Source of the DNA: Albifimbria verrucaria
Lineage: Eukaryota > Ascomycota > Sordariomycetes > Hypocreales > Stachybotryaceae
Direction: 5' to 3'
DNA: 64,000 bases
NCBI GenBank assembly: GCA_020081605.1
Contig: JAHREC010000007.1
Span: 930,001 to 994,000 of the forward strand
The notes under the pieces are model-generated. The model searched no databases. It had not been told where the DNA came from and saw only the letters and a program-made list of their open reading frames with translations. A program made the position numbers and the translations under genes. Positions 1-64,000 of the stretch are shown piece by piece; position 1 is the stretch's first letter, and each line of letters starts with the position of its first letter.

Positions 1-3000
1 CATTTCGAGCATTTTTATGACTTCTTCCACAAATGCGAACTTCTCTTCTTTGCTCACAGAGGCTGGTTGGCGTAGCATGGCGCTGAAGCGGAGGCTCTCG
101 CGAACAGTAGAGGTCTCAAGGTGTAAATCTATAGCAGCAATTGATTAGGTTCAATCAGAAAATGACGGAGTATACTTGAGAAGCACAAATACATACCTTG
201 CTGTTGCACGTATCCAGTCTTGCGCTGGAAACTGGGATCCCGCGGTTTACCATTCACAAACATATCGCCAGTGATAACGCCCATCGTTGTCCGTTGGGCA
301 AGTACATCCAGAAGTGTAGTTTTGCCAGCTCCAGATACGCCCATCAAAGCTGTAAGAGTTCCAGGACGAACCCAACCAGAAACATGATCAAGCAATCGCC
401 TTGGCTCATTCTTGATATGGATATCGTACACGACTTCTCGCCATGTGAAGATGTCTTTCTGCGGCTCGATAGCACCGACATCTCCAGCACCAGATGAGGC
501 TTCTGGCTTCTTCTCGTTGACCGTGTTGCCAACTCCATCGGAGCTTTGGGCATGGTCTCGAAGATGTGCAGGAACATGGCCTCGTTGAAATACAAGCGCC
601 TCCGCAGTGCTTGCAGTCGACGAGTTGAGCTCAGTAGTCACAAAGTACATGATCATAAATGCGAAAAGGAATGCGAGAAGGATGCCAAAGTTTCTCCAAA
701 CGTGTGAGTAATAGTAGTTGTAGTTGGCCGCAATAAACGCATCTCCACTGACTGTTCGCTCGCCCGCTACCGCACCCGCTACGGAGCAGATATACGAGTC
801 TCCCACAAGAGGCGAATACTGAGGGACGAGAGATGAACAAGTGAATCTCCTTCCATGAAACTCATTGGCGACTAGAATTTCGAATCCATAAAAGATAGGA
901 TTTATCCATCGGATCCAAGAAAACCATGGATGCATGTCTGGAACGGTGATCGTGAACCCGGTGTAAATGACCAAAGCAAGAACCAGGACACCCGATAACG
1001 ACATGGCTTGGGAAACAGTCTTGGTAATGGCTGCCATGGTACGGAACACCGCGCTCATCACAAACGTTGATACGAATGTGATAAGGAAGTAAATGAAGAA
1101 CTGAGACGGCTCTCGTCGTAAACCAGAGAGGAAATACAAGACGATGTTGAAACACACGGCGGACAGAAATTTGATGGGTATGTCCGCCACAATTCCAGCA
1201 GCCGCTTCTGTCGCTGGGTGACAGAAAGCATACGAAGCATGTTTTTCCACAATTGGGCGCTGGGCGTACAAACTGTTGATTTCGGAAATGGCTGTCAAAG
1301 CATTGACGAGAATGGCAATGAACAAGACAGATCCTTTGGCATAGAAGCCAGCTGTAGCGTCTGGGTTCCCAAAGAAGATAGAACCAACAATCAAGGCTAT
1401 GATAATTTGACTGCAGCAGGAAGTAAGAGTTGACGATTTATCGTTCCATAGCCTCTGATAAGCCCGCTTGGTGTTGAGTCTAATCTGCATCAAAATGCTG
1501 ATTGTGTAGGGCGAGTTGGGTCGAACATGATTTGCTTGGCGCATCATCTTCTGCTCTCGAAGCTCAGCAACTTTGTCGCCACTGCGTACCTCCGCTTCAT
1601 AGTTTTGAATGTCTTCTATAAGAGCTTCATATTCTCTCGATTTTCGCCAGTAACGTTCAAACTCCTCTGGAGTGCGAGGAACTTGCTTCTCCATGCCACG
1701 CTGAGGCTCTCGCTCCTGTGGATTTGTTACCGACGTAAGGAAATCGCCAGTAGTCTGACGTGCAGGGCAGTGCCAGCCTTGGCGTTCGAAGAATGCCTTG
1801 GCTTTGTTGGCGGGACCAAAGTAGATCTGCCGGCCTTCGTAAAGAACCGTAACCTTGTCGAACAGTTCGTAGATGGCCTGGCTCGCTTGGTAAATGGCAA
1901 TAGCGTTGGCTTGGTGACCGATATCAGACACCATACGAAGCGACTGAACGAATTTGTACGCAGTGGCAGAGTCAAGACCTCTGGTACTGTTATCCCAACA
2001 CAAGAAAGGACTTCCAGATAGAGTCATTTCAGCAATGCTGACTCGCTTCCTCTCTCCACCCGACACACCGCGGATAAAGTCATTACCGACTTTTGTATTT
2101 CTCGTGTGGCTCAACCCAAAGGCAGCCATGACAACGTTTGCCACGTACTGGCTAAACTGCTTCCGCGACATGCCTTTGAGACGTTGACTGGGCGTGCGAG
2201 CGGCTGCTGCATATTCGAGAGTTTGCCCTACAGTTAAGTGAGGGAAATGCTTATCGACCTGGGAAAAGCTGTTAGCAGAAATTATGGTAGAAAAGATCCC
2301 AACAGGAATGAACCACCTCTTGGTTGTATATGGCCTCGCCCTTGAACTCTTTCTTCATCTGCTTCTGCGGGATGCCATCGTAGTGGATCACAGAATTGCC
2401 GCCAACGCTCAAGCCATGTAATTCACCGCATAGCGTCTTAAGCAGTGTGCTACATCCGGAACCGGGGCGTCCAAGGACAATTAAGAGCTCTCCAGCCTTG
2501 ATTAATCCATCGAAACTGTGTAGAATTTGTTTTGGCTTCTTTTGCCAAAACTGAAGAGTTCTCCGATGCGAAGTGGAAAAAGGAGAAGGGAGCCTACAGT
2601 CTCTTGAACCTGTACTGCAGCGCCCTGTCCGAATATGTCAACATTGCGATACGTGACTCCAGTCCGTTTTGCGGTAACTCCTTCTTTTTGCAGGGTTTTT
2701 GCAAAACTGAGGATCCATTTTCTCAAATCAAAACGGTCTGATTTGGGGTCGAGCTCTGCGTCCTCTTCATCTAGGACATCAAGAGTACGGATTTGGCTAG
2801 GGCCACCGGCGACAGTAGAATGACGTCGTGATAAAGCAGTAGCTACGCGTACTAATTCGGTGCGATCGGCTTCTCCAATAACATCATGAGACGTTTGGCG
2901 GCCCAGCCCTGGACGCGAATTCTTCTCCACATAGTGCGGGACATCGGAAGCCTCGGTTGTGTCTTGGCTGATGTGTTCGTTGCTCAGAGCCCTACCTGTT

Positions 3001-4054
3001 GAAGAATCTTTCTGACTTGAGTCCGTTGATGAATCTTGCCGGGAAAAACCGGCGGCTGTCTTGAAACCTGTAGAATGGTCTTTGCGGTTTGACCCAATTG
3101 AACGATCTTGTCCGGCCAAGTTTTCGGGTTCGTCTTGTCTGTTTGAGCCTATAGATTCATCCTGGAGGTTGGCATTTGCCACTATATGTTGACCAGTTAA
3201 GCTTGCTAATGGACCTTGTCGATTTGAGGCTGTTGATGAATCTTGCAGAGCTGAACACTCTGGATAGTCTTTCTGACTTGAGGCTGCAGGTATGTCTTGC
3301 TGGTTTACAATTGGTATAAAATGTTGCCCAGTCGAACTTGCGGATGTGTTTTGTTGATTCGAGCTTGTTGATGAATCTTGCTGGTTTAAACCCGTGGACG
3401 AGTCCCGCTCATTGATACCTGCTACGATATGCTGCCGGGAGAAATTTGGGGATGAGTCTTGCCTGTTCGAGCCTGTTTCCTGTTGGTTTGAGGATACAGG
3501 CAGGCCGCGACGGGTGACATTTGTTATAAATTGTTGCCCAGTCAAGTCTCCTAGTGCATCTTGCTGAATTGGGCTCGTGGAAAGGTCTCGTTGGTTTGAG
3601 CTGGTGGATGAGTCGTGCTGGCTGGTATTTGTTATAATATGATGTCGGATTACATTCGTTGACGTGTCTTGGTGGTTCGAGCCTATTGGCACGGCTAACT
3701 CGTTGATATTTGTTATGAATTGATGTCTGAGCTGACCTGGTGACGAGCCTTGTTGGTTCGAGCTTGCCAGAAAATGTTGCTGGTCCAGGCCAGTCGACAG
3801 ACGTGGTTGAGGTGAGTCTGTTGATACATTCTGATGGCTCAAGCGCTCGTCGCTTCCCAATTCAGCAGCTGTGCTTGCATGGTGACCGAAGGTGTCGCCT
3901 TCTTGGCCCGTATTTCTTGTATTACCATGCTCAACTCGCTCTGTAGTTTCATATTCCCTGTTGAATTATTATACACACGAGTCACTGTTTCAGTGGTCGT
4001 GTAATGCAAAACATCCCCATCAAAAGAGTCTCGGCCAGGCCTTTCAGCTGACAT
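1..4054 (-). CDS. PDR-type (ABCG) drug-efflux ABC transporter, partial
   Basis: Full-size fungal PDR transporter, expected in the plasma membrane, exporting xenobiotics using ATP; the 3' end runs off the left edge. Seen: ATG at 4052-4054; a long repeat-rich N-terminus; the PDR N-domain; NBD1 with Walker [13 protein letters not shown] (about 2420-2470), ABC signature VSGGERKRV and Walker B-like [15 protein letters not shown]; a first membrane domain; then NBD2 Walker [15 protein letters not shown]. Introns fit at 2259-2316 and 129-196; after the second, the NBD2 reading continues to position 1. A short intron is needed around 3870-3990 to join the first exon ([11 protein letters not shown]...) to the repeat domain; its exact ends are unclear. 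The reading frame breaks at 2540-2543, where one extra A in a minus-strand A run would restore the conserved KQILHSFDG segment. Family assignment is secure; substrate unknown. Confidence 0.93.
2995..3830 (-). repeat. Degenerate Gln/Ser/Asp repeats coding the N-terminus of the ABC transporter
   Basis: About 270 codons built of two interleaved degenerate units: a roughly 9-residue unit like SNQQDSSTS and a roughly 15-17-residue unit like TGQHFITNVNQQD. Examples are [36 protein letters not shown], and [30 protein letters not shown] copies are diverged, so it is an old or selected array, not a recent expansion. PDR transporters normally have only about 100-150 residues before the N-domain. Confidence 0.8.
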
Positions 4055-31863: not shown

Positions 31864-34800
31864 ATGGTAAGACAGCAACTCTTGGTCTTCCAGCATGTCG
31901 CTAATTAAGGACTTGGCAGGGTGAAAAATACATTGTCGAGCCGGCGTGCGACGCAGATCCCATATACCGAACCCAAGGCCGCTCCCTAGGTCTTATTTAC
32001 GAGGATATTAATGTTATTGGTGCAGACGGGCAGGAGAACAATATTCCGACCTTACCTGCACTATTGGGGAATATTGCACAATGGCCGATCACCGTCCTCA
32101 ATAATGTAGCCCGTAAAACGAAGCCGAAAGTTCGACATATCCTTCACGGCGCAAGTGGAGTTCTCCTGCCTGGCGAGACCATGCTCGTGCTTGGCCGTCC
32201 AGGCGCGGGCACCTCGACGCTATTAAAAGTGCTCGCCAACAACCACGGATCCTTCGAGGAAGTTCAGGGAAAATGCAGTATGGCGGAATCTCCAGGAAGT
32301 CATGGCACAACGGTACGAATCCGAAACAATCTACGTGAGCGAAGACGACATGCACTTTCCGACCTTGCCTGTCAAGGATACTCTAGGCTTCGCTCTGCGT
32401 CTTCGAAAACCAAAGAGTGAGCGCCGCAGGACATCAGAGTTTATCGGAGGCATGACGAACGCTTTGCTAAGGTCGGTCGGTCTCTCGCATACAGCAAATA
32501 CCATTGTTGGAAACGCCTTTGTACGCGGCGTCTCTGGAGGTGAGCGTAAGCGCGTTACGCTCTTGGAGGCTCTCTCGGTGAACCCGGCTATGGCCTCATG
32601 GGACAACCCAGCACGGGGATTGGACAGCTCTTCGGCAACTGACTTTGTTCGTCTTCTTCGGTCAATCTCCAAGAAAAATGGGATGGTCAATGTGGTGACC
32701 ATGTATCAAGTCTCCGAAACTATTTACGAACAGTTTGACAAAGTCACGGTTCTCTACGAGGAGAGACAATATTCTGCGGTAAGGCTGCGGAGGCCAAGGA
32801 GTACTTTTATAATCTAGGATTTGAGAGTCGTGAGCGCCAAACGACGCCCGACTTCTTGACCTCCGTGACATTGCCTGCCGAGCGTCTAGTCCGCAAGGAG
32901 TTTGTTGGCAAGACACCTACGGACGCTCCCAGCTTGGCCAAAGCATTTCGAGAAAGTGAATACTTTCTTCGGTTGCAGCAGGAAATAGAGAGTTACAAGC
33001 GCGAGACGCACAACGATACTACCTTGGCGGAAGAATTTTGCAAGGAGGTCAAACAGATTCGCTCACGTTGGGTTTACCGCTCGGCCATTGCACCTCACGC
33101 GCTGTGGGAGCAGGTTTGGCCTGCCATGAGTCGTTACTATAGGCTCATTTGGAACGACAAACGCACCTTTTACACGCTCATTGCCTTCAACATCGCCAAT
33201 GCTGTGATCAACGGATCCTCATACTATATGGCTCCTAAGGATGTCACTGGTTCTTACGAGAAGAGCAGCGCCTTGTTCTTCTCCCTCATCTACTTCTACC
33301 TGAATGCGCTCACCGAGGCAGTTTCTACCGTCAAGTCGCGCGATATCCTACTCAAGCAGGTCAAGTATGGCTTCCTCCATCCCAGTACCGTAGTAGTTGC
33401 TCAGACTATTGCGGAAATTCCCATAGCCTTTCTTCATTGCCTGCTCTTTTCTTGCTGCTACTACTGGCAGATAGGCCTGCAGCAGACAGCATCAGCCTTC
33501 TGGATCTTTGTTCTTGTGGTTTTTACGCATTATTCGGCCGTGCAGAGTTTGTTCCGCATGCTCGGTGCCTGGTCGCCTAACATTTCCTAACGCTGATGAT
33601 GGCTGGAAGTGCTATTCCGGTCGGCTTGCTCTACTCAGGCTTCGGACCACCTCGGCCGTATCAGCATCGTTGGGGCTCCTGGCTACGCCGAACATCGCCC
33701 TCGCCGTGGGCGCTTGAGGCCTTGATGGGCAATGAGTTCTCTGACATCATTTTAACATGCTCTGACTCTGATATGGTTCCCTCTGGAGCTGGCTATGATG
33801 ATCCTCGCTATCAGACTTGCAGTATCCTCGGTGCAGAAAAGGGCCAACGGTCAGTGGCCGGATCAGTATATCTCCAAGATCAATTCGACTTCACTCGAAG
33901 TCATCTATGGCGTAACTTTGGCATACTCCTTGTTTTCTGGTTCTTGTACACAGTTCTTGGTTGCATTGGGCTTTCCCTCATGACAAGGGAGACAAAGGGG
34001 TCAACTGGCCGGGTCTTCAAGAAGTCAAAGCAAAGAGACGTGGAGAACAAGCCTCGATCCTCAGCCTCTTCGACACTGACCGAAGCTATGCCCGCGACAG
34101 CGCCGATGGCTGATGATGGTCAAGCAACTCATTCAAGCATCTTCACCTTCGAGGATGTTAGCTATCATGTGTCAGTTGACGGAAAAGAGAAACAACTGCT
34201 CTGCAACGTCAGCGGCTACGCTAAGCCAGGGCAGCTCACAGCCTTGATGGGTGCATCTGGTGCGGGCAAGACAACACTGCTAGATGTCTTGTCTCAACGA
34301 AAGAACACTGGCCAAGTAGACGGGGCTATCAATCTTAACGGGCAGCCTTTGAGTGGCTCTTTTGCGCGTTCTTGCGGCTTCGTCATGCAGCAAGATGTTC
34401 ACGAGCCCAAAGCCACTGTGCGAGAAGCGCTTGAGTTTTCGGCCAGGTTGCGCCAACCGCGGGATGTTCCGGATGAGGAGAAGGTTGCATACGTTGAGCA
34501 TATCATCCATCTCCTTGAGCTTGAAACAATCGCGGATGCGCTAATCGGAGAACCCGGAGACGGACAGCTTGGTGTGGAAGAACGGAAGCGTGTAACAATT
34601 GGCGTTGAGCTTGCAGCGCGGCCGAGCTCCCTTTGTTCTTGGACGAGCCGACTTCCGGGCTAGATAGTCAAGCAGCTTTCACTCTGGTATCGTTTCTGCA
34701 GCGCATCGCTGCCGAGGGAATTCCGTCGTTTGCACTATCCATCAGCCTTCCGGAGTGCTTTTCGACATGTTCGACCACGTACTCCTTTTAGCCCCTGGTG

Positions 34801-36057
34801 GCCGTACAGTTTATTTTGGTGAAACTGGTGATAATTCCGGTAAAGTAATTGACTACTTCAGCCGCCATGGAGCCCTCATAGGCCAGAACGATAACCCTGC
34901 CGAGTTCATCATCTCTACCGTTACATCACAAGATGCCAACGCAAAAGATTGGCCTGCAGCATGGAATGAGTCTGCTGAATGCAAGGCAGTGAAAACAGCC
35001 ATAACACAGCTCAATGCCCGAGGGCAGGCGTGCAAACCCAGAACCAGGAGCGGCCAGATGAGAAGCAAACCGCCGCTGCTCAATCAGACAGCCAGTTCGC
35101 ACTGCCCCTTTGGGCACAAATCGAGGCTGTGACGAAGCGACACTGGATTTCAGTTTGGAGAGATGGAATGTATAACTTCAGCAAGATCGCCAAATCTCTT
35201 TTCGTGGAGATGTTCATCGCCTTTAGCTTTTTCAAGTCGGAAACGACGTGCAGGGGCTGCAAAACCGCATGGTCTCAATTCTACTTCTCTCGTGGGTTGT
35301 CCCCGCCGTTTCCGCCGACATACAAGACATGTGGTTCCGCAAATGGGAGATCTTCACGGCGCGAGAGAAGAACGGCATCTATGATTGGAAAGCTTTGCTG
35401 GCTGCTCTCATTGTTGTAGAGCTACCGTGGCAGCTCGGCACCTATTCCCTCATCTTCCTCACCACATACTGGACTATTGGCTTTCCAAGCGAGGCAGCTA
35501 TCGCAGGCATTAACTATTTTATGTGGCTCTTGCTCGCCATTTTTGGCACTTCGTACTCGCAGCTGTTGGCCGCCATGTTTCCGAACGCTGTCATGAGCGG
35601 CTATGCTAACTCTCTCTTTTGGGTTATACTTATGGTGTTTTCTGGAGTCTTGACTCCGCATGCATACTTGAACTCGTTTTATCGACCATGGATCTTCTGG
35701 GCTGACCCAATGCGCTATTTCTTTGGGGCTACAGTAGCCACGGTTCAACATGGTGTTGAGGTGCAGTGTAAGCCGGAGCAGCTTACTTCCTTCGATCCTC
35801 CACCAGGCCAGGACTGCATCACTTACTCCAAATCTTTTCTGGAAATGAGCGCGGGGTATCTTCTCAACGGCAACGCCACTGAGAACTGCCAATATTGCCA
35901 GTATTCTGCAGGCGATGATTACACCAAAACCCTAGACTATGGGTACAACCAACGATGGTGGAACTGGGCTGTCTTCGTGGGATTCTGTCTGAGTAATATT
36001 ATGCTTCTCTTCGTCATCACTTGGTGGACGAAGGGTCGGCTTCAACGACGTCAATGA
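31864..36057 (+). CDS. PDR-type (ABCG) ABC transporter with short N-terminus
   Basis: Second full-size drug-efflux type transporter. Seen: NBD1 Walker A GRPGAGTSTLLK, signature VSGGERKRV, Walker B-like WDNPARGLDSS; first membrane domain; extracellular loop; NBD2 Walker [15 protein letters not shown], signature-like LGVEERKRVTIGVELAA, LFLDEPTSGLDSQ; second membrane domain with QDMWFRKWEIFTAREKN and SYSQLLAAMFPNAVMSGY. It ends in TKGRLQRRQ. The best start is ATG 31864-31866 followed at once by an intron 31867-31919, giving MGEKYIVEPACDADP, so it lacks the usual long N-terminal domain; another upstream exon is possible. At least eight frame breaks (about 32270, 32300, 32777, 33587, 34622, 34717, 35021, 35237) each fit one lost base. 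Substrate unknown. Confidence 0.9.
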
Positions 36058-46038: not shown

Positions 46039-47147
46039 TCATTGCCCTCTAACTGCAGACAATTCATGATAGTTTGCCTTTGTTGGCATCTCAGGCGTGT
46101 TCGCAGTGGTTGATACTTCGATAATCCTACCGGCAACGTTGTATTCCATCTCATGCGGACCGCGTTGCCCTTGCAACTGTTCTTGCATAGCTTGCATCTT
46201 TGCTTGTGTTTTCCGGGAGCGCAACACAAAGTAGATGAGCGCGCCCACTAATACCGCCCCCAGTCCCACCCCAACGCCGATACCAGCTTGCGCGCCAGTG
46301 GACATGCCGCCTGGCCCAGATGAGCCTTGGGGTGGTTGCAGCGGATCAGCCATTGTCGAAGTTGAGCTGGATGTCACCATCGAGCTGGACGTCACATCTG
46401 AACTAGTTATCGTAGAGCTCTGATCTGTGATGTCCTCAAATGGCGGAGGAACTTTGCGGCTTGATTTTGAGGTTGTTGTAGGCGTTGGGGCTGTTTGCGC
46501 CGGGCTTGCCGTTTCCCACCAATCCAAAATAGTCCTATCCGTGGACTCCCAGAATATGGGAACCCCCTAGCTTGAACTGTAAGTGTGGATGTAGCTACCA
46601 CATCTGTTACCCTTTTCGCCGAGTTCGTGGCGATTAGCAGGTTTGTCATTGTGTCACCTGGCCTGACAGTCTTGACACAGTTCAAACTATAGTACCAAAG
46701 CCATGTTGAAATCCCAACGTCGGCTTCATAGCCTCTTTTCATTGCGAAGGAGTAATTAGCTGCGGTATCCAAAACTGCAATCAGAATCTTGCGAGAAAAA
46801 GACAAAGAGACTTACGATGGGCAGCAAAGCCATGCTGTTGTACCCTTTCCAATCGTATGGGTTGAAGAGGTTATAGACTCGCTGGGGAACGCTGTCTCAA
46901 GAGAGACGATCGGCGCCCATCCGCTGGGGCAGATCCCTGGCGAGTAATAGTAGGGCATATGCATATTAATGAGAGTTTGCGTGCCGGATGGATAACAGTC
47001 ATATTTATCCACGGTGAAAGCGGCATTGACATAGAAGAAGCTGAAGTCATCTGAGACATACGTAGTGGTAGATAGACATGATTCTGGGGGCGTAAATGTT
47101 GTAGTGAGCGGTCCGATATTCTCATCCTCTATATCACTCATTTTCAC
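46039..47147 (-). CDS. Ser/Thr-rich single-pass membrane protein
   Basis: Fungal family of unknown function: a Cys/Pro ectodomain (TTTFTPPESCLSTTTYVSDD, YYSPGICPSGWAPI, TTAWLCCPS), then NYSFAMKRGYEADVG, a Ser/Thr stalk (SSTITSSDVTSSSMVTSSS), and a glycine-rich transmembrane helix GIGVGVGLGAVLVGALIYFV with a basic cytoplasmic tail RSRKTQAKMQ. One intron about 46747-46811. One frame break at the C5 run 46563-46567 fits one lost base. No signal peptide is obvious at MKMSDIEDENIG, so the true start may lie elsewhere, or insertion uses the single helix. Possibly a cell-surface sensor-like protein (inference). Confidence 0.75.
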
Positions 47148-51752: not shown

Positions 51753-54077
51753 ATGTCGACGCAAGGCGACAGATCCAGCGACGAGTCTAGTGCTACTAGG
51801 CCGTACCGTCTCCAAAGCGACGCCGGCCATGTGACCGGTGCCGTGAGCGAAAGTTGCGATGCCCGCAGGAGGGCGAGCCGCCGTGCCGTAGGTGCCAGCA
51901 AGCTCAGGCTCTGTGTACATTTCGCGACAGGCCACGGAGACGACCTCCAAAAGATCGTCGGCGGGCGTGGCCGACACTAGTACTATGCTTGCGGAGGCTG
52001 CAGAGCAGCAGGCTCGTAGTGAGTCAAGACCAGTAGAAACAGACGCGCAGTTGCATACTGTTGCGTGGAGCGATGAAAACCACTTGGCTACTGCAGAATC
52101 TGGAACAAACACGCCACAACTCGACGACATGGACCTCATAGCTCCAGCGACACAGTTTTCTCAAAGCCTGGACCATGTCATGGGCCACACTGCGGTCCTT
52201 CTGGGAGGTTCATCCGAAGCCGATCCTTGGTTACTTAGGCATTGCAGGTTTGATGACTACGGATTGCGACAGTTTCATGAGCTGCAATTCCGACACGTTG
52301 GAGGCGTTCCAACAGTTGGAAAGATTCCAGTGCATTTCCTCGTCACGCCTGATAATCTCATTGATGGCGCAGCAGCTGAGACGCAGGTTGCTGAAATTAA
52401 CCATCTTCGAGAACAACTGAACCGAGTCATCCCTCTGGCTTGGGGCGTAAGATTGGTCCGACTGTGGGTTTTGAGACAGGAACATAGAAATGCCATACAT
52501 ACTGACCTTGTGAACCAGATTTTACAGACACGTCTTTCCTCTCCTACCCATAATATCATCGACATATTTTGGGAATGAACCTGCTGAAAGCCTGCCTTCG
52601 TGTGATTCCTTAAGCAACGTCCCCTGCCATCTTCTCGGCGCTATTTATGGCTCGGCTCTGCCTTTTGCGCGAAACGATGATCATTTGGCCATCCTTGAAA
52701 TACACAACAAACTTCCTCAGGATACTGTATGGCGTATAGTTTACGATTCTCTTCAAGAGCAGTTTCACCGACCACGTCTTTCCGTTCTGCAGGCTGCCAT
52801 CCTCTATCTTCATAAGGAAGGCCAAGCCCGGCAAAGTCATGTAATGTCGCCGACAGCGTTCAAATGGTCTTTTATGGGCAGCATTGTGGGCATGGCGCAC
52901 AGTCTTGGGCTGCACCTGGAGACTCGTATGTGTGCGATACCCATGGAGGAGAAGCAAATCCGACGCAGGGTGTGGTGGGCTGTGTATATCGAGGATAAAT
53001 GGTTGTCTCTACTATTGGGCAGACCGCCTTACATCCGTTTTGATGAATGGGATGTTACTGACCTGGATGATACCGATTTTGGGCCTCCTAACGCTGTTCC
53101 ATTCTCCTCAGTCCCTCTTCACAAGGTTACAGCCCCATTTCGCGACATGGCACGTCTCGCCACCATTGCCGACTCGGTTCAGTCTTCATTTTAGTAAGTT
53201 CGGTCCGTCATTCTAATTGCAGTGCCGAACTCTGTTGCTAACAGTCATGCGGCTCCTTGAAATCTTGTCAGCGCCTAGCCGAGGACTTATCAGCCTCAAT
53301 CGAAACAGCAAAACCAATCTTTGAGCGGCTTGGTGCTTGGCGGTCCACAATATCTGTTCCGGAGCCGCTGCATCTGGGCGCACACCACGATGATCTTGGC
53401 GCCGATCCTGAATACCCAGCTACCGTCTACTTTTCCTACATCACTCTTGTCGCATATGTGTGGCGAGCCTTGCTGCGTCCAACCGTGTCGTCCACGCCAC
53501 CACCGTTGATTGTTGACACTGATCAACTGTTTCAAGACACTCTCGACATTAGCCAGCAAACATTTCGATATGAAGGATTGAGCTGGAATCTCCCGGATCT
53601 TTCCGAGATCGAACTACCTTCAATGTCCGGCAACAACGGTTCCATTGCAACAATTCGGGAGTTATACCAGGCCTCATTAAGTTGGGCAGTAAGCGTGGTT
53701 GATTTCACTCACCAATTATCTCCTGGTAACTTTGGCGAATTTTGGTATGGCTGTAAGTAACAACCTCGCTATATTTGCATTGATGTCTGTTATCATGGCC
53801 ATGTCTGACTGGTAATGCTTGCATAGGGTCAAATATCTGCTTCGCTGTTGTATCCAACTTTGCTATGGTTATTTTCATACAGTCACCCAGCCCAGAAGTC
53901 GCCACAAAATCCAAGATGATGCTTGACAAGTGGCGAGGCGTGGTACGGGAACAAAGCAAGATTTCGCCGTTACTGTTACTCGCCTTGTTACGGGTAAACG
54001 GCTTCTTTACAGCTGGGTTATCTGACATTTTCTCTTTGCCGATGCATGTCAAGCAAACCATCACGGCTGAGAACTAG
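51753..54077 (+). CDS. Zn2Cys6 transcription factor
   Basis: Nuclear regulator. The binuclear zinc cluster is CDRCRERKLRC, then CRRCQQAQALC, with a basic stretch on both sides (PKRRRP, RPRRRPP). The fungal TF domain follows: LHKEGQARQSHVMSPTAFKW, LGLHLETRMCAIPMEEKQIR, RRRVWWAVYIEDKWLSLLLG, RPPYIRFDEWDV. It ends LPMHVKQTITAEN. Introns about 53196-53244 and about 53754-53826. Frame breaks at about 51802 (G), 51951 (A4 run), 52547 (C3 run) and 53191 (T4 run) each fit one lost base. The next genes downstream are the Cys-rich protein and the nickel/urease genes, so it is a candidate cluster regulator (inference only). Confidence 0.88.
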
Positions 54078-54167: not shown

Positions 54168-54198
54168 TCGGCGAAATATTTTGGAATGATTTCGCCGA
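54168..54198. promoter_or_regulatory. Inverted repeat upstream of the Cys-rich gene
   Basis: TCGGCGAAAT (54168-54177) and its exact reverse complement ATTTCGCCGA (54189-54198) separated by 11 bp, 94 bp before the ATG of the Cys-rich gene. The arms share the core found in the urease cluster promoters. Confidence 0.6.
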
Positions 54199-54291: not shown

Positions 54292-54615
54292 ATGGACAGA
54301 TATATCGATTTCACCAGACCCTCCACGGCGTCTTCACAGACTGGAGGGCTGTGTCGCTGTGATGCATGCATCCCACCACAGTTCCGAGAACCTTGTCGTT
54401 GCCAGCAATGCATGCTTCTTCGACAAGAACGCCAGCCGTGTCGGTGTGATCAATGCATCCTTCCATGTCCTAGTGCGCCTCCATATCGCACCTCGGAGAA
54501 CCGACCTCCACCATCGTACGACGAGGCAATGCAATCTAACAGACCTACAACGGGTGGGTACTCGAGTTCATCAAATCAAAGGACCAAGAGAATGACTTTA
54601 AACAAAACCGAATGA
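54292..54615 (+). CDS. Cys-rich CRCxxC-repeat protein with PPxY motif
   Basis: 107 residues from the ATG at 54292, single exon, intact. Three CRCxxC units at residues 21-26, 35-40 and 50-55 (CRCDACI, CRCQQCM, CRCDQCI), spaced about 15 residues, plus a tenth cysteine at 59. The arrangement suggests metal binding, like a small metallothionein or metallochaperone. After it comes PPPSYDEAM (residues 72-80), a PPxY motif that WW-domain ubiquitin ligases of the Rsp5 type recognise. No signal peptide or membrane helix. I know no named family with this layout. It lies between the Zn2Cys6 factor and the nickel transporter and has an inverted repeat like the cluster motif upstream, so a nickel-handling or transporter-turnover role is a reasonable guess. 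Confidence 0.7.
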   Translation: MDRYIDFTRPSTASSQTGGLCRCDACIPPQFREPCRCQQCMLLRQERQPCRCDQCILPCPSAPPYRTSENRPPPSYDEAMQSNRPTTGGYSSSSNQRTKRMTLNKTE

Positions 54616-55385
54616 ATCTATACAAATGGGTTCTCTCATTCAAACGCCAATCATAGTTTTCTTTTTGAAGTAAGTGATCATTCGCCTCAGCTATTTCTGA
54701 TCCAAACTCACACGTCACAGACACGATGTCTCACACAACCAAGATTTGGCTCCGTTATAACTTCCGTTAGAGTCAGTTCACTGAAATCATTGGGTATTAT
54801 TAGGCTAACCCGACTACACTGACATCTATACATCAGTCATCCTCAAGAGGACGAGGAGACGAAGCCGGTGAAAATGTACTGGGCAGTGGAGAGAGAATAC
54901 GATTTAACCAATGCGGATTAGTTGCCCTTGAATAGGCAGAACAAATTTGAGTCTCCTTCAATGACTGGGGAAAAACAGAAAGTCAAGGGAAAATAATGCT
55001 TTTGGCTCAAACATTTGGCCCATTATGCGTATTAATAAGAAGTCACAGTAAAAGAAAAAACAAAGAAAGTCTTTCCACGGGATAAGAAATGCATAGTAGA
55101 GTATTTCTGCTGGTTTATGCTTGTGTGAATTTTCTGTGGTTCAAAAATATAATGCGAGCCTTCCGAGCTCTTAATTCACATTAGAATTTGACCCAAACGA
55201 CAGACTCAATCGTACCATTAATATTTCATCTGGTATACACGAAGCTAGAAAAGGGTTTTACGACAGATATTTCATGTAGCAACGAGCTTGCCACAAGAGC
55301 TCTTGACGTCAACATTATTCAACAAGACACGGTACTTGCTTCAAAGTGGAGTGAGGAGTTTAGATAATCTCTATGTAATGTGACT
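54616..55385. other. Intergenic, 0.8 kb
   Basis: 3' flanks of two convergent genes. No gene seen. Confidence 0.5.
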
Positions 55386-56662
55386 TCAGTCAGTTTTCCG
55401 TGTCATATGTACAGAAGTATGCTCCACTGGAGTGGGTGGAGAGTTTTGCGCATGGGTAGCCGATATGGCTTGTTCCTCATTAACCTGTTCAGCAGATTCC
55501 TCGGTAACTGACTGCTGATACCTCCTTTCAATACATCTTATCCAAGGCTTGTACAATGCTACCGACCCAAGACCTATGACTAGAAACAGAGCACAGACCG
55601 AGCCACCTATTATGTCAAAGTTATCCCCTATGGCCGATACACCATCCCAGAAAGAACCATTGGGATTGGCAATATTTTGAGCTAAGGATAGAACTTGAAC
55701 GATGCCAATGAACGCAGAAATAATTACCGTTATAGCTGTCAGGGTTATGGAGTAGTAGAGAATCATAACAAGATCTCGCGAAAAAGCTTTCGAGGTATAA
55801 AGTGCCATCATCAAGGCGCCATCTGAAGTGTCGAGAAGGCACATACCGGCTGTTGTCAAAGAGTTAGTCCACGTAAGATTAACGTATGATAAAGACTGCT
55901 TACATGTGAAAAGAATCGGGAATATCAGGATGAGCCAGATATCAGTTCCCTTTAGGGCTTGAACACTAGTGATACCCAATATGGCGACCTCGGAGCTGGT
56001 ATCAAACCCCAAACCAAAAACGACGCCGAGGGATACATCTTCCAAGGCCGATCAATAACTCGAAAGAGTTTGTGACAAAGACGTGTGAGGAATCCACCGC
56101 CCTCGAGAGCCAGGTAATCTGAACCTGATGTGACTTCATCTTCGTTGTAAGCTTGAGATGCCGTGGACATGCGCTGCCTCTCCGCAATGGCCTGTCGCAA
56201 GCGTCGGGCCAATCTATAAAGCACCCATGCGTTCCCAATGCAAAGAATAATCAAGAATGGTGCACTGACACTAGTACCTATAATATTCCCTACTCTTTGG
56301 AAGTCATCGAACTTGCGTTGCAGGGCGCCGCTAGTTGCTGCGACCACAATGCATGTAATTATAACGATGGTGCTGTGTCCGAGAGAGAAGAAAGTCCCGA
56401 CTGTAGCTGGTCGCTGTCCTGAAGCAATAAGTCGTCTAGTTGTAAGGTCGATGGCTGATATGTGATCAGCGTCGAGAGCATGGCGCAGACCAAGTGTGTA
56501 GGACAGCGCGGCAGAAGAAATGAGGCGCGGATGAAAATGCAAGACAACAGCGACAGCACCCCAAACGATAGCATTGACCGAAATGAGAATAGAGATAATT
56601 CGAATGCAGTTGTTGGGAATCCCACTCAGCCATTTCGGCTTCCGATAGGGAGGCGACCCCAT
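55386..56662 (-). CDS. NiCoT-family nickel/cobalt transporter
   Basis: Imports Ni2+ (possibly Co2+) across the plasma membrane with high affinity; nickel is the urease cofactor. The family signature LRHALDADHISAIDLTTR in helix II is complete, as are FFSLGHSTIVI, LGVVFGLGFDTSSEVAILG and GMCLLDTSDGALMMALY. Eight hydrophobic segments, about 400 residues. Start MGSPPYRKPKWLSGIPNN at 56662. Intron 55850-55903. One frame break at GGG 56030-56032 (plus strand) fits one lost base and joins WKMYP to LGVVFGLGF. It is followed on the same strand upstream by UreD; the promoter between them holds a TTCGGCGAA palindrome. Confidence 0.95.
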
Positions 56663-57349
56663 GTGTCTCGAAGAGAGGTGAGTTGGAGCATTCGGGTTCT
56701 CCAGTTTAGTTGACTTGTGAAGTTGAGAATGAGTTGAATATGATATATAGAGATATACACCTGCTTGCGCTGAGTTCCGATTGCCAAGTCCAACATCGAT
56801 TTCTCTTTCACAAATTCGTCCGGCTTATATACAGCTTGGCTTACTTTGAAGGGGTTCGTAATCCACCTGAATGAACTGCACCTTTACCTAATTTGGTAGC
56901 TTTTGGCCGACGTCCTGGCGTCTGAAAAGCTTTCGGCGAAATATGTAGGACCCATGCAAATGGCGGAAAGCCCGTCGTCCCCTGTACTCGGTAGCATGTG
57001 GGAAATCGACAAAGGCCATCTTGCGCCAACAAAACTACAGACGGGGATAAATCGTTTTTAAAGAAGCCACAAGAAACTTCTGTGTACCATAAGTCGAACA
57101 AAGCTCTATCACCACCTCTTGGCGTGTATAACTAACTCACTTCTGATTCTTCGATTAGTCCCAGCTAGCATAAACGGACAGTTCCGGGGTCAAACAAGGT
57201 TGCCCTTGCCCTGCCCTGTATTTCGACAGGTTCTTACATGTAGCCGCAATATAGCTAAGAACGGCTAAAATATTAACAATGCTTGAATTGAACAGTGATA
57301 TGAGCCTTTTCATGCTTATCGATTTCCTTAGTTACCCCCATGCATCGCT
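56663..57349. other. Intergenic, NiCoT promoter / UreD 3' flank
   Basis: No gene. Contains the palindrome at 56932. Confidence 0.5.
56932..56940. promoter_or_regulatory. TTCGGCGAA palindrome, nickel transporter promoter
   Basis: Perfect TTCGGCGAA, 270 bp upstream of the NiCoT start codon; flanked by TT on the left and AT on the right. The same 9-mer is in the two divergent promoters of the urease cluster. Confidence 0.55.
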
Positions 57350-58310
57350 CTAACGATCCTCGAGACAAATAAGGAATTGTCGACCAAAATCTTTCAGTAT
57401 AGTCCCTTCTTTGATCATCATTTCACGGAGCCACCGTCTAGCTGTACCAACCTCGTTGGCCCCGAATTTGACGATAACAAAGCCGCGAATAGAGGCAGCA
57501 GTCCAGATCAGACCCTCATAGGAGTTCTTAACCTCTTTCTTGTTCCCAGCCCAACACTTTGCTCCGATACGAGGATGTTGAGAAAACTCTCTCAAGAAGA
57601 AGCCACCGAGCTGCATAAAGTGTTCACCTCCAATGATGAGAGTACCAAAAACCCCTTTCCCGTCCATGCTATCCCGTATCGAGAGGGGACTTTGAATCAT
57701 CGCTATTGCTAAGAATCATATTGTCTCTCAATACCAGCCTACTGCCTTGTGGCTTCGTGTTTTTATGAGTCTCTAGAGATGAGTTGGGTATTTTCCAGAT
57801 TTCGTTGCTTGAACGAAATAATGTCAGGCTCCAAGACTCTCCCATTGCACTTCTGCCCTCAGAGATCCAATCTAAGAAGCACAAGTTTGATCGACTACAC
57901 ATGTGAAACACTTGACGTTGTTCATATCTGCTGTTTCGAAAAGGCTGGATTGGATCTGGCAGCACCACTAATGACGCGCCACCTTCAATCGTTACAGTCA
58001 AATTTTGTCGGGCAGTAGTATCATGTGTCACCGACTTGTAAATCTTTGTGCTGCCCTGTGTCAGCAAGCCAAGCCGAGCATTGCTATGAACATGAGCACT
58101 GAGCTCGATGTGATCTTTTGGAACCAGACCGCCGCCGTGGCTGATGATGAATGCCAACACGGCGCGACGGTCATGAGCGATATCCGGGGCTATCAGCTTG
58201 ACGGGATATGATGCTGCGAGATTGCATACCCTTGAGCCTGACGTATCGGCCTGAACTGCGATCAAACCATAGCCTTTAGACGCCTGTTTATTGAGGATGT
58301 TTGTTGACAT
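57350..58310 (-). CDS. ureD: Urease accessory protein UreD
   Basis: Scaffold of the urease activation complex; binds apo-urease and recruits UreF and UreG to insert nickel. Seen: the N-terminal YPVKLIAPDI, SHGGGLVPKDHIELSAHVHS, the conserved LLTQGSTKIYK, LVVLPDPIQPFRNSRYEQRQ, LDWISEGRSAMGESWSLTLF, then in the second frame SIRDSMDGKGVFGTLIIGGEH and the C-terminal WTAASIRGFVIVKFGANEVGTARRWLR, end FLICLEDR. Intronless. The frame changes in the overlap near 57670-57700; loss of a CT pair in a CCCCTCTCG run, or one extra base, explains it. About 310 residues in total, the usual length. It shares a divergent promoter with urease. Confidence 0.93.
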
Positions 58311-58830
58311 AGGCGGATTCTCTGGGGGTCGAAATCTAAAACAAATCTTTGCTCATCTACGAAGGGAGAGAATGAGCATCGAATATAGATAGACGAAGTG
58401 GACAAGACTCTGTGCAGCAATAGGAAGCATCACCAGACACAAAGTCTGTTTCCATTCGGGATACGAGTTAGTAGTTCTCTCAGGAACCAGCTTAGAACAA
58501 GAGCGTTGTCTGGGCCATTTTGTTCTGTTCGCTGTGGAGCTTCGGCGAATGTTCCCAGACTTACACACCACGGAACTCTAGTGTCCACTTTCGCCGCGCG
58601 GCTTCTACCTTTTCACACCAACAGACAGTTAGCTTGCTTACTCTTCAGCGCCACTTGATAATAGCGGCTCGTATCAAAGTGACTTATATGTAACTAGCTG
58701 AAGCCTATTGTGCTTCTGGTTGAAAACCCCCAACACTGCGATTGTCTGGTTGAATAACCGCCATCCATCAAGTATAAAAACCACACACGCTGATCTGAGT
58801 ATACTGGGACTCTCAACACCACAACTAGCT
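58311..58830. other. Divergent promoter, UreD / urease
   Basis: 520 bp between the two start codons. Holds a perfect palindrome at 58541 and a partial one at 58590. Confidence 0.6.
58541..58549. promoter_or_regulatory. TTCGGCGAA palindrome, UreD/urease promoter
   Basis: Perfect TTCGGCGAA near the middle of the divergent promoter. A second, incomplete copy TTCGCCG lies at 58590-58596. Confidence 0.55.
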
Positions 58831-61800
58831 ATGCATCTAATCCCTCGAGAGGTACTTATTGATTTATTTCGCCCACTTGAGTTATGCTAACCTGAGAAAC
58901 TAGCTTGACAAGCTCCTCATTTCCCAAACTGGATTTCTCGCTCAACGGCGCCTTTCACGTGGATTGAAGTTGAACCATGCAGAGGCTACTGTAAGATAAT
59001 TATCTACCAAAAATCTTTGGAGCTTGGAAACGCTAAAATCAATGGTGTTAATGAAATAGGCATTGGTGTCAAATGTCCTGCAGGAGGTCAGTTCATTGAA
59101 CCCAGCCGCGAGCCCCTTCGAGATGCATTACCCACTATCCATGCTAACAGTGCATCGAGTAACAGCTCATGCGTGATGGCAATCATAGTGCATCAGATCT
59201 TATGGACCTTGGACAACGTATCCTTGGTCGTCGACACGTGGACTCTTCAGTTGCAACGACGCTGACAGGGCTCCAGGTAGAGGGAACATTTCGCACGGGC
59301 ACACATCTCGTGACTGTTGACCGGCCCATCAGCACTGACAATGGGGATTTGAAGATGGCCATGTATGGAAGTTGCTTGGATGCGCCTGATGAAGAACTCT
59401 TCCCAGCCATCGAACCTTCAGATTTCTCCCATCGCAATATGCCTGGTGTCGTCATCGCCGCGCAAGATGAACAAATTGTGCTCAGTCAAGGGCGGCAAAG
59501 AATTCGAGTTAAAGTGACTAACCGTGGAGATAGACCTGTACAAGTTGGATCGCATTATCACTTCATTGAAACTAACCCTTATCTCGACTTTGATCGCATT
59601 AAAGCCTATGGATACCACCTTGACATCCCTGCGGGAACCTCTGCTCGTTTCGAACCAGGGGATGTCAAGACAGTCACTCTAGTAGAGGTCGGAGGCCTCA
59701 AAACGATTCGAGGAGGGAGCAGCATTGCTCCCGGACGGATCGACCTGTCCCTTGCCAATACAATTGTCCGCCGGATGAAGGAATCTGGGTTTTACCATAC
59801 TCCAGAGGAGCCATCGGATAAGGAGCAAGATCCACCCGAACCTGCTACAATGGATAGGGCGTCTTATGCAGCCATGTATGGCCCTACTACTGGCGACATC
59901 GTTCGATTGTCCACCATGGACCTATGGGTGAAGGTTGAAACCGATCTTACTCACTATGGAGACGAATGTACTTTCGGTGGTGGCAAGACCCTACGTGATG
60001 GCATTGGCCAAGCGAGTGGCCGTCCCGGCTCGGAATGCTTGGACCTAGTCATCACCAATGCCTTGATTGTAGATTGGAGCGGCATTATGAAGGCAGATAT
60101 AGGTATCAAGAATGGCCGGATCGTCGGCATCGGAAAAGCAGGGAACCCTGATGTGATGACCGGGGTCAATCCAGCCCTTTTGGTAGGCTCCAACACGGAT
60201 GCCATTGCCGGCGAGGGCAAGATTATCACTGCTGGTGGAATTGACACACACTGTCATTTCATTTGCCCCCAACAAGCGGATGAGGCTTTAGCCTCTGGCA
60301 TAACAACGCAATTCTCTGGAGGCACCGGTCCTAGGTAAGTTCCTCCATATATTGGAGGACATTCCTGAATACACCCAATATTCGGCACTGAACGAAGGTT
60401 AAACATCAGTACTGACACATTTATCTGCAGCACTGCAACCGTCGCGGCCAACTGCACCCCGGAAAGAACAACATACGTCAAATGATGCAAGCATGTGATC
60501 ATTTGCCTCTCAATTATGGCATAATTGGAAAGGGCAGTGACACCGGTGAGCGCGGGTTACGCGACCAAATAGAGGCTGGAGTGGCTGGGCTCAAAGTTCA
60601 CGAAGATTGGGGCTGCACACCTTCATCCATCGACAACTGTCTCAGGTAAGGATATTTCGTGTCAAATAACCAACCATCAAATTGATACGTTTACGAATTG
60701 TACCGATTTAACTAACATCCTGACAATAGCGTGTGCGATGAGTACGATATCCAATGTGAACTTCACAGCGACTCCTCAACGAGGCTGGCTTCGTTGAACA
60801 GACCGCAGCCGCATTCAAAGGCCGCACCATACATGCATATCATATAGAAGGCGCTGGAGGTGGTCACGCTCCCGATCTGATCAGGCTCGTGGAGAATGCC
60901 AATGTTCTCCCAAGCAGCACAAATCCAACATGCCCATATACCGGGAACACCGTGGACGAGCATCTGGACATGGCCATGAGCTGCCACCATCTCTCAAAGG
61001 ATATCCCTGAAGATATATCGTTTGCGGAATCCCGCATTCGAGATGAGACTATTGCAGCTGAGGATGTGTTACATGACTGTGGCGCCATTAGCATGATGTC
61101 CTCTGATTCACAGGCCATGGGTCGTTGCGGCGAAGTCATAACTCGAACTTGGAGTATGGCTGATGCCAATAAGTCTAGAAGCGGTCATTTGAAAGAGGAC
61201 GAGGGTACAGGCGCCGACAACCATAGGGTTAAGCGATATATAAGCAAGTACACTATCAACCCGGCCATCGCTCAAGGAATCAGCCATGTTGTGGGCAGCG
61301 TTGAAGTTGGGAAACTAGCAGATCTAGTAATTTGGGAACCTGCGAGATTCGGTACAAAGCCCTTCATGGTTCTAAAAAGTGGCTTTGTAGCCATGGCCCA
61401 GATGGTACGTTTTTGTCTTCGGTTTAAATCACTTAATTCTGTCAATCCATCATTTACTAATTAGCCTCGGTAGGGTGATCCCAATGGATCGTAAGTAAAA
61501 AGAAGCTAAATAATAGCATGAAGGTTTTGCTAACATGACTGGAAGAATCTCGACTGTGCAGCCAATCATCTCAAGGCCGATGTTTTCTGTGAGTCCCTAC
61601 TCCTTCGATGACCTTTTCACTCAGACAACTGCTAATGAATGATTAGCCCCTATTACCTTCAGCGAGTGTTTTATTCGTGTCTAGGATAAGTATCAATAAC
61701 GGTAACATTGAATCATATGGCGTAGCCAAACAAGTTGAAGCCGTCCAGGACACCCGTAAAGTGAGCAAACACGACATGAAGTTTAATGGCGCAACTCCTG

Positions 61801-61966
61801 CAATGAAAGTAGATCCGGAAACGTTCGTGAGTTTATCCTATTCAACCCTTTAAGATCTTGGCTGCCACTAATACATTTTACTTAGATAGTGGAGGCCGAT
61901 GGTGTGGAGTGCAAGGCAGACGCACTTTCTTGCAGTTCGATTGCTCAAAAACATTTCTTATTCTGA
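58831..61966 (+). CDS. Urease (fused gamma-beta-alpha, nickel metalloenzyme)
   Basis: Hydrolyses urea to ammonia and carbamate in the cytosol. Single-chain eukaryotic type: gamma part [20 protein letters not shown], beta part [21 protein letters not shown] and [11 protein letters not shown], alpha part [18 protein letters not shown]. Nickel ligands and catalytic residues are present: HCHF, the carbamylated lysine in [21 protein letters not shown], the flap MSCHHLS, and [13 protein letters not shown]. Nine exons; introns 58852-58903, 58991-59165, 60335-60430, 60646-60729, 61405-61473, 61491-61545, 61589-61646, 61827-61885; stop TGA 61964-61966. Two frame breaks fit one lost C each, at 60457-60460 (before GKNNIRQM) and 60774-60775 (before NEAGFVEQT). 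Exon 2 to 3 skips about nine residues usually found between NHAEAT and LMRDG. Confidence 0.95.
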
Positions 61967-62188
61967 TATGCAGAACTCGGGAAGGAATCTTTCTTCGTTA
62001 GGTAGCCAAATAATGCAAACAGTCGAGATCAATGCAAACAATAAAAACGCAGATTTAGTCAGTCATCATTATGTTTGTGAATTGTCTAACAAAATCTTCT
62101 GGTTTCATTTATACTCGTACAGCCTCCCAGTACACCCGTTATAATATGATCTGCCACCTAATCCGTATTTCTTGCTGTCCTGCCAATA
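61967..62188. other. Convergent 3' flanks, urease / UreF
   Basis: 220 bp between the two stop codons, no gene. Confidence 0.5.
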
Positions 62189-63223
62189 CTAACTGTTGAA
62201 GATCCTGGAGTACAGCAGTTCATGCCGACCTATCCAGAGATCCATGGCTGGTGTGTTTTGGGCAGCCTCCTCCACTGGTGTGTTCCACTCTCTTTCAATA
62301 ATGGCGGTAATTTCTCTTTGGACCTGCGCGCTCGCCAACACCTTTTGTGCTTGATATGGCCCAATAGTATTCGCCCGTACTGCCGCCGATGTCACGGCTT
62401 TGACATGGCTAAGTAAAAATGTGTAAGCGGCCTGATGCAAGCTTAGCCCGGCCAGACGGGCAATGACCCCAAATAATGGCGCCAAGTGACCCGAAACAGG
62501 GATATATTGACTATTATTATCTACATCATCAGACCACATGCCTGCTGTCCGATCAGTACGGCTGTCCAGATCCTTCACAAGTTTACTGTATTGAGTCAAA
62601 GCAGCTCCTGCCTCACAATGGAAAGAGGGTGCAAATGATCGATCCCAGATGGATAACAGCGCACGACCTTGTGTGAGAGAAGCACGCCGACCCACAGAGC
62701 ATAGGATGGCAGCATCCAAAACATCGTCCAAGATGGTGATGGTGGCGGGGTCGCGGTGGCAAGATAGGACGAATGGCAACGTCGTAGCTGCGAAAGATGA
62801 GAGTGACAAAGGGAGAAATTTGGCAGAAAAACTTGCTGGCGAGCCACGTGGTAAATGTGCCAAGTAAGATTCTAGACCCGAGCTGAAGGCAAATGATCCC
62901 AGGGGCAATGCCGAATCAGACAGTAAAAGAAGAAAATGCAAGGATGTGTCTGGGCGATCTAAAGACTAGGTTGTTAGCAATGGTTTATGTTTTGATGTCG
63001 AAGAAATTGGTGACCTAGGCGTTCTCGAGTGAAGGCATATGTTGTCTGGTTTGCATAGGATATACATACTAGGAGGCTTCGGGATCCCTTCTATGAAATT
63101 GGATTTTGGTGTCCTCTCGTTATTTTCGAGATCTTCTAACCCCATGTTGGGTTCTTTAGTCATGATTTGCGAAGGCTGATGGCTGTCATTCAAGGGTATC
63201 CGTCTAAGACGTGATCCGACCAT
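62189..63223 (-). CDS. ureF: Urease accessory protein UreF
   Basis: Binds UreD-urease and works with the GTPase UreG in nickel loading. Seen: LHFLLLLSDSALPLGSFAFS and SGLESYLAHL, the UreF signature, later CEAGAALTQYSKLVKDLDSR, SGHLAPLFGVIARLAGLSLH, QAAYTFLLSHVKAVTSAAVR and the conserved end SRIFNS. Intron 62959-63069 (111 bp) joins KPPN to RPDTSLHF. The first ATG is at 63223 (MVGSRLRRIPL); a second Met (MTKEPNMGLE) about 20 residues on is also possible. About 305 residues. No frame break, unlike its neighbours. Divergent promoter with UreG. Confidence 0.94.
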
Positions 63224-63742
63224 GTACTACTAGATCTTTGGCGATATGTTTAGCAGGATAAAATTTGAGGTATAATGCTTGCAGGCGGAAGGTCATAAAT
63301 TTTGCGCGCCGTCATCACTTCGTACGTAGCGGATGGAGACATGATCGTTTGGGAGGCCGTGGTCAGTCGATAATTTCGGCGAAAGTCTAGCCTGACTTCA
63401 TTATGTAGCGCCTGTTAGCGTGATATTGAACAAATCAGCAATGTAGCGCATTGACTAGGCCCGTATGATCAAGTAGCCTAGAAAACTGGAAATGGCCGAA
63501 TGCTTCGTCTTTTGTGTTCATCTGCCCTGTCGGCCATTTCATGGCGAGGCTTGGTGGATTGAAAGACTTTCGCCGGCACTTGCCACGCGCTCCAAATTTC
63601 CGATGATATTTGGTATCAGCATATGGCTATAAGAGCCCGTTGGCGGATACGAGACAAGACCGTGTTTAATTCAGTTTATAATAATTCATCCATCCGAAAG
63701 TCTGTTATAGTTACTTAAACCTCTATTGCAACGCCCAGTAAA
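63224..63742. other. Divergent promoter, UreF / UreG
   Basis: 519 bp between start codons. Holds a perfect palindrome at 63375 and a partial one at 63569. Confidence 0.6.
63375..63383. promoter_or_regulatory. TTCGGCGAA palindrome, UreF/UreG promoter
   Basis: Perfect TTCGGCGAA within TTTCGGCGAAA. A partial copy TTCGCCGG is at 63569-63576. Confidence 0.55.
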
Positions 63743-64000
63743 ATGCCCCAAAGCCATTCACATAACTGGATGCCACACTCCCATGATATAGGAGAAGACA
63801 TCAATGCTCAGCATGGCCACTCACATGAGATTCTTAGTGGGCCAGGCAGTTTCCTGGGCCGGGAAATGCCCATCACAGAAGGCCGGGATTGGTCTCAACG
63901 CGCATTTACCGTGGGCATCGGCGGGTAAGTTTGACTCACTCGGGCGAGTTCGCGATATGTGGACTCAGTTAAGTACGTGGCTGACCAACCGCCTCATCTA
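63743..64000 (+). CDS. ureG: Urease accessory GTPase UreG, 5' part
   Basis: SIMIBI-class GTPase that delivers nickel to urease. Exon 1 is complete in the window: a His-rich metal-binding leader (MPQSHSHNWMPHSHDIGEDI, QHGHSHEI) and WSQRAFTVGIGG, which is the start of the UreG P-loop block. An intron begins at about 63926 (GTAAGT) and runs to the right edge, so the P-loop lysine lies outside the window. Fungal and plant UreG commonly carry such a His-rich leader. Confidence 0.93.

Follow-up and report, generated by a model that had tools for sequence, protein, structure and literature searches.

A predicted second nickel-urease gene set, clustered in the genome of Albifimbria verrucaria

To our knowledge, the ure genes of fungi are usually regarded as unlinked. 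We ask here what is represented by a locus of Albifimbria verrucaria in which the genes for a NiCoT nickel transporter, UreD, urease, UreF and UreG stand in a row. The locus lies in a stretch of 64,000 bases (the window), bases 930001-994000 of contig C4 (1,444,976 bases), in a genome of 48.4 Mb and 41 contigs. Based on the gene families, the further copies in the genome, the protein trees and the promoter regions, we predict that it probably encodes a second, self-contained and co-regulated nickel-urease module, clustered beside scattered housekeeping copies.

The nickel-urease locus

The five genes are arranged as NiCoT (minus), UreD (minus), urease (plus), UreF (minus) and UreG (plus), from position 55386 to about 600 bases beyond the window end. 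The features of the locus, in window coordinates, are these:

51753-54077, plus: gene for a probable Zn2Cys6 transcription factor, with an uncertain start codon and a broken frame
54169-54197, no strand: inverted pair CGGCGAAA-N13-TTTCGCCG, 95-123 bases 5' of the small open reading frame
54292-54615, plus: small Cys-rich open reading frame (ORF), 107 amino acids; own match only in the genome
55386-56662, minus: gene for the nickel transporter NiCoT (NicO), with a single frame break and, by inspection, one GT-AG intron
56934-56941, minus: CGGCGAAA element 5' of NiCoT
57350-58310, minus: UreD gene; one frame break
58543-58596, no strand: promoter region of the divergent UreD and urease genes, with an 8-mer element (58589) and a 7-mer in the opposed orientation (58543)
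58831-61966, plus: urease gene of the fused gamma-beta-alpha type; GT-AG introns, two breaks in frame, nickel-ligand motifs retained
62189-63223, minus: UreF gene; long exon 62189-62965 and, by inspection, a short first exon upstream
63377-63575, no strand: promoter region of the divergent UreF and UreG genes, with two elements in opposed orientation (63377 on minus, 63568 on plus)
63743-64000, plus: first exon of UreG, with a His-rich start; about 600 more bases past the window on C4, with one frame break there

Pfam identifies NicO (55955-56824, minus), the UreD domain (57672-58352, minus), Urease_gamma, Urease_beta, Urease_alpha and Amidohydro_1 in a single gene (59163-61461, plus), and the UreF domain (62192-62965, minus). 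A cobW/UreG domain starts at the window end and runs on into the next bases of C4; the NCBIfam ureG model scores 252.1 bits for this protein against a cut-off of 204.2, and the protein has a His-rich N-terminal stretch and a CPH motif. No further family is recognised by Pfam between NiCoT and UreG, where the small ORFs were not each searched; with that limit, the Pfam and NCBIfam results confirm the initial annotation, made from the sequence without database searches, which had described a five-gene nickel-urease locus with no unrelated gene in between. That annotation had also placed the start of the locus at 54292, which turns out to be the ATG of the separate Cys-rich ORF and not that of NiCoT, and had called the set complete; four of the genes do lie inside the stretch, and the rest of UreG lies beyond the window end. 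A tRNA scan found none.

Five genes of the same pathway in a row are no chance arrangement. The contiguity of one-pathway genes is that of a fungal metabolic gene cluster, and the locus lacks the co-oriented, intron-less genes of a bacterial-type operon. The eukaryotic style of the genes had been proposed from the outset, and the fused urease and its introns bear it out, the NiCoT intron being identified by inspection only.

The urease exons, joined with X, give 840 amino acids with gamma, beta and alpha in one chain and a normal C-terminus, which is the one-chain form (about 840 amino acids) of a fused eukaryotic (plant/fungal type) urease. A relative, P0121, can be aligned over the whole length of the 840-residue chain 3la4, which we take to be jack bean urease. 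In an alignment with housekeeping ureases, the window urease retains the nickel-ligand and carbamylated-lysine motifs, if the aligned residues have the roles that we assume for them. At 239 columns otherwise invariant among 120 relatives it differs at one, and at the same columns the scattered urease on contig C15, described below, has five mismatches and three gaps.

A scattered second copy of each gene

The suggestion that this might be a second set next to scattered housekeeping copies is supported: family searches of the genome, which score best candidates only, found one further copy for each of the five families, with NiCoT on C36, UreD and UreF on C41 (about 0.9 Mb apart), urease on C15 and UreG on C13. 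These scattered copies fit the picture of unlinked fungal ure genes. CobW-type matches on C41 and C6 were considered as the scattered UreG and rejected in favour of the C13 copy. The cluster and scattered proteins differ to varying degrees. Identity is 64.5% over 823 columns for urease, 63% for UreF, 47% (best piece) and 38% (last piece) for UreD, 63-84% by piece for NiCoT, and 88-90% over conserved core pieces of UreG with about 55% over its last piece.

C4 and C15 belong to one genome, since their first 10 kb are 99.77% identical. Both ends (C4:1-10000 and C15:1-10000) carry telomeres and about 10 kb of near-identical subtelomeric DNA.

Origin of the cluster genes

Homologue figures for the proteins rest on the best 120 rows per search, and all four trees are quick trees without bootstrap, with clade support in the urease tree from the Shimodaira-Hasegawa-like approximate likelihood ratio test (SH-aLRT). 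The urease tree has 57 rows, made up of 55 of the best 120 matches plus both host copies. It places the window copy in a second clade of 23 rows (SH-aLRT 100), whose other members include Akanthomyces muscarius, Cordyceps javanica, C. fumosorosea, Neophaeotheca, Vermiconidia and several Aspergillus and Penicillium. The C15 urease of the host belongs to a housekeeping group of 13 rows from Hypocreales and Glomerellales (support 98). Forcing the window urease together with the Hypocreales housekeeping ureases is rejected by the approximately unbiased (AU) test (p-AU 1.4e-57), and tree and test together reject the idea that the window copy was recently duplicated from the host's housekeeping urease.

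Horizontal transfer of the second urease lineage between fungi, with the cluster carried along, is an alternative that we consider unlikely. In its favour is the very patchy distribution of the lineage among the best 120 matches, which comprises Cordycipitaceae, two taxa that we take to be Dothideomycetes, some Aspergillus and Penicillium and a few other contigs. A recent transfer should shrink the distances within the second clade, and these match or exceed those of the housekeeping clade: 0.66 versus 0.67 between Hypocreales and Dothideomycetes, 0.85 versus 0.77 between Hypocreales and Eurotiales, and 0.88 versus 0.66 between Dothideomycetes and Eurotiales, with 0.39 between the window and Akanthomyces ureases against a Hypocreales mean of 0.36, in a comparison made on one collection and its best 120 rows. 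With second-clade distances that are similar to or above those of the housekeeping clade, the urease pattern fits an old duplication followed by many losses, for which recent transfer would not be required.

The other genes have trees of their own. In the UreD tree (38 rows, including all 36 UreD rows among the matches listed), the cluster copy stands apart from the host's C41 copy, the latter being a long branch. In the UreF tree (53 rows: 51 of the best 120 matches, of 1903, and two own rows), the cluster copy pairs with P0001 (support 100), apart from the 51 others, and the C41 copy pairs with Stachybotrys (97); we place the host in Hypocreales. In the NiCoT tree (34 of 84 NiCoT rows), the cluster copy pairs with P0274 (99) inside Hypocreales and is grouped with the host's own C36 copy (88), the window row being a long branch. 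Judged by these trees, the urease, UreD and UreF of the cluster are deep paralogue lineages and its NiCoT is a younger recruit. The parts thus differ in age by tree, and the set was therefore assembled in more than one step. All five genes sharing one history, a point that the initial annotation had raised for protein trees, is not what these trees give, with urease, UreD and UreF in old lineages and NiCoT near the host's own. Its proposal that the cluster was built by relocation or duplication stands insofar as there is a second set beside scattered copies, and fails insofar as urease, UreD and UreF are no recent copies of host genes.

An import from bacteria, against which the initial annotation had already spoken, is ruled out: introns are present, and the organism-named rows among the matches listed are all fungal.

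Two observations concern other ureases in the tree. The scattered urease (C15:4264620-4267655) is 75.5-79.7% identical to its Hypocreales relatives, compared with 79.4-89.9% among eleven others, and its end branch is 0.32, as if it were less constrained; the next is that of Aphanocladium (0.26), which has a second-type UreD. Aspergillus ambiguus has both urease lineages (P0136 and P0226), like the host of the window.

Linkage in other fungi

Partial linkage is not unique to the window, as the pairing of urease and UreD recurs. Among the matches listed, A. muscarius and C. javanica are the two species with both second-type genes and locus tags. In A. muscarius the second-type urease and UreD have the consecutive tags LMH87_006064 and LMH87_006065 (longest contig 7,450,776 for both rows), and in C. 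javanica the consecutive tags V2A60_007682 and V2A60_007681 (longest contig 4,111,731 for both rows). Both species have UreF of the housekeeping type only, among the best 120 of 1903 matches. UreF P0001, the partner of the cluster UreF, and UreD P0242 probably lie on one contig, as judged only from the equal size (72,266 bases) of the contigs that carry them.

Frame breaks in the cluster

Four of the five cluster genes are broken in frame, which the initial annotation did not mention. There are two breaks in urease and one each in NiCoT, UreD and UreG, and none was seen in the long UreF exon. As a control we took the chaperonins (PF00118) of the same genome, counting a break where neighbouring matches in different frames are separated by a gap of less than 40 bases, too short for an intron. 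The 24 chaperonin matches, with 14,334 matched bases, have 8 breaks. In the scattered set, by our own reading, there are at least six breaks in three of the five genes (one in the C15 urease, three in the C41 UreD, two in the C13 UreG) and none seen in the C41 UreF; the C36 NiCoT has overlapping matches in two frames, which an ordinary intron fits equally well, and it is left out of the count. A near relative of the cluster UreD, P0241 from a JGI contig, shows 94-96% identity by piece and has no break over 320 amino acids. Because the chaperonins break at a comparable rate, the scattered ure genes break too and the relative's UreD is intact, the breaks are best read as assembly errors, unproven break by break.

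A decaying cluster, in which a former working set has turned into pseudogenes while the scattered set does the work, would be clearly improbable on these figures. What speaks for decay is that the five breaks in about 6.4 kb of coding sequence (assumed lengths) affect four of five genes at a rate somewhat above that of the chaperonins. Apart from the control, the scattered genes and the relative's UreD, decay has against it that the window urease reaches its normal C-terminus and keeps 238 of the 239 invariant columns, better than the C15 copy.

A shared promoter element

The 8-mer CGGCGAAA (TTTCGCCG) has 10 copies in the window against 1.49 expected, a number reached by none of 100 shuffles. 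Six copies are spread over all four promoter regions (small ORF, NiCoT, UreD/urease and UreF/UreG), where 0.057 copies are expected from the 7 copies found in 240 kb (the rest of the window plus other loci). Taken together with the count from 180 kb of other loci (4 copies), the expectation is 0.04-0.06, and window positions 1-50000 alone raise it to 0.12. In a count of all 8-mers, CGGCGAAA is the top one of two that are present in all four regions, the other one overlapping it. Shuffles produced an 8-mer common to all four regions in 2 of 400 cases, and such an 8-mer with six copies in 0 of 400. The 43 kb fetched around the five scattered genes have no copy of CGGCGAAA. At 54169-54197 the element forms an inverted pair, and no other such exact pair with a spacer of 5-35 occurs in the genome (48.4 Mb). 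GATA(A/G) sites number 2-3 per promoter region, as raw counts.

That the genes are chance neighbours, or share open chromatin with no co-regulation, the 8-mer being an effect of base composition, is most improbable. The locus does lie in a low-G+C stretch, co-regulation is predicted from sequence, and CGGCGAAA occurs four more times in the window; none of the backgrounds comes near the six copies seen, and the inverted pair is unique.

Two of the copies lie at window positions 46614 and 48396, a few kb 5' of the regulator gene, and an ORF of 182 amino acids, with no Pfam family, starts at 48395.

The probable neighbouring regulator and the Cys-rich ORF

The probable transcription factor gene encodes a Zn2Cys6 cluster, CDRCRERKLRC...CRRCQQAQALC, at 51830 and a Fungal_trans domain at 52514-53191. 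Zn2Cys6 proteins usually bind CGG triplets, and we infer that this neighbouring protein binds the CGGCGAAA elements and co-activates the cluster genes.

Between the regulator and NiCoT, the ORF of 107 amino acids has 10 Cys among residues 1-60, with three CRC(D/Q)xC repeats, and a PPxY-type proline motif, with the inverted CGGCGAAA pair upstream. It has no second match in the genome and no Pfam family. As a guess from its sequence, the peptide might bind metal, such as nickel.

Genomic context

C4 has telomere repeats at its start and DNA of 5% G+C at its end (1434977-1444976), and for this reason it resembles an arm of a larger chromosome more than a small accessory chromosome. The low-G+C end (C4:1434977-1444976) is centromere-like.

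That unlinked genes or foreign fungal DNA were joined in one contig by misassembly is barely credible: the assembly has many small errors, and the G+C of the window (0.467) is below that of six of the seven 10-kb samples of C4 from 400 kb on (0.504-0.549; the seventh, at 400 kb, has 0.472; the count leaves out two samples behind the window, 0.470 and 0.459, the contig end, 0.048, and the telomere side, 0.461-0.484), but the cluster copies form a separate lineage and are not relocated scattered genes, other fungi show partial linkage too, one element is common to four promoters, and C4 is of the same genome as C15. Starship cargo is ruled out, as none of the 8 matches in the genome to DUF3435, which we take to be the marker of Starship captains, is on C4. 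Those matches are on C14, C18, C19, C20 and C21.

A predicted nickel-urease module

Several points weigh against a second, self-contained and co-regulated module. Its expression and activity are predicted from sequence, and with four of the five cluster genes frame-broken in the assembly this holds for activity in particular. The module was not formed in one step, as NiCoT has a history different from that of urease, UreD and UreF. Among the matches listed, second-type UreF is found only in the window and on one contig of 72,266 bases. CGGCGAAA was first spotted by eye and tested afterwards, and it also occurs outside the cluster promoters, once in the coding part of the regulator and three times in window positions 1-50000. 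The link between regulator and element is drawn from position and from the general CGG preference of Zn2Cys6 proteins. We still hold the second module to be the probable explanation.

In the mechanism that we propose, urease and UreD would be an old core pair kept in scattered ascomycete lineages, to which UreF was added early and NiCoT at a later stage, within Hypocreales. NiCoT would import nickel, UreG would carry it, and UreD, UreF and UreG would together insert it into the second urease, which would turn urea into ammonia. The neighbouring Zn2Cys6 regulator, via CGGCGAAA, would turn the cluster genes on jointly. A more far-reaching version is possible but tentative: a complete and separately regulated nickel-urease system with a urease lineage predating the split of the ascomycete classes and its own regulator acting on CGGCGAAA, in which the Cys-rich peptide, expressed from the same element, would be a nickel buffer or chaperone that replaces the missing UreE.

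A clustered second full set with a common promoter signal is a direct test case for why eukaryotes cluster genes, for which the candidate reasons here are the toxicity of free nickel, apo-urease left without its chaperones, and joint inheritance. It also draws attention to a second Pezizomycotina urease lineage that is annotated plainly as urease and may differ in regulation or in its conditions of use.

Comparison with known systems

Bacterial ure operons hold urease and accessory genes together, often with a NiCoT gene. The locus resembles them in bringing nickel uptake together with urease and the accessory genes; it differs in its orientations (-,-,+,-,+), its introns, its fused urease and in that UreE was not found here, and it has divergent promoters with a common element in place of a single transcript.

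The protein families and the fused urease are those of the fungal housekeeping systems, as far as the consulted parts of two papers describe them. In Aspergillus fumigatus, UreB, UreD, UreF and UreG are all necessary and jointly sufficient for activity (PMC10100864). In Cryptococcus, Nic1 is required for urease activity unless nickel is added, and the system of Ure1, Ure4, Ure6, Ure7 and Nic1 has no UreE, the UreG protein Ure7 taking its part (PMC3697809). The words "chromosome" and "cluster" are absent from PMC10100864, as are "linked", "operon" and "cluster" from PMC3697809. Unlike the housekeeping urease of A. nidulans, to which it is 65.0% identical, the window copy is of the other lineage.

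Clustered urease assembly genes in a eukaryote are described for green algae, where they form a gene neighbourhood (PMC7826186). The same paper cites Qiu et al. 2013 on the red alga Galdieria phlegrea, whose title speaks of gain by horizontal transfer, and its consulted part has no fungal urease case. It also mentions the yeast DAL cluster, a fungal metabolic gene cluster; our locus is like it in keeping fungal pathway genes together and unlike it in that the functions are uptake of a metal and insertion of a cofactor, and in that another full set exists elsewhere. Two urease genes in one genome, as here, are reported in Cladophialophora immunda (PMC5844311), where the consulted text says nothing on accessory-gene linkage or on the lineage of the copies. 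Nothing on clustering was found in the consulted parts of PMC3073912 and PMC11890741. A full-text literature search on urease clusters and duplicates in bacteria or fungi, whose coverage leaves out most subscription papers, recognised no fungal urease-nickel cluster. Bacterial operons, algal neighbourhoods and fungi with two ureases are known already, and a fungal nickel-urease cluster is not recognised in the literature searched.

Elsewhere in the window there are two PDR-type ABC transporter genes, at 129-3965 and 31905-36057, the second of which seems to be frame-broken too.

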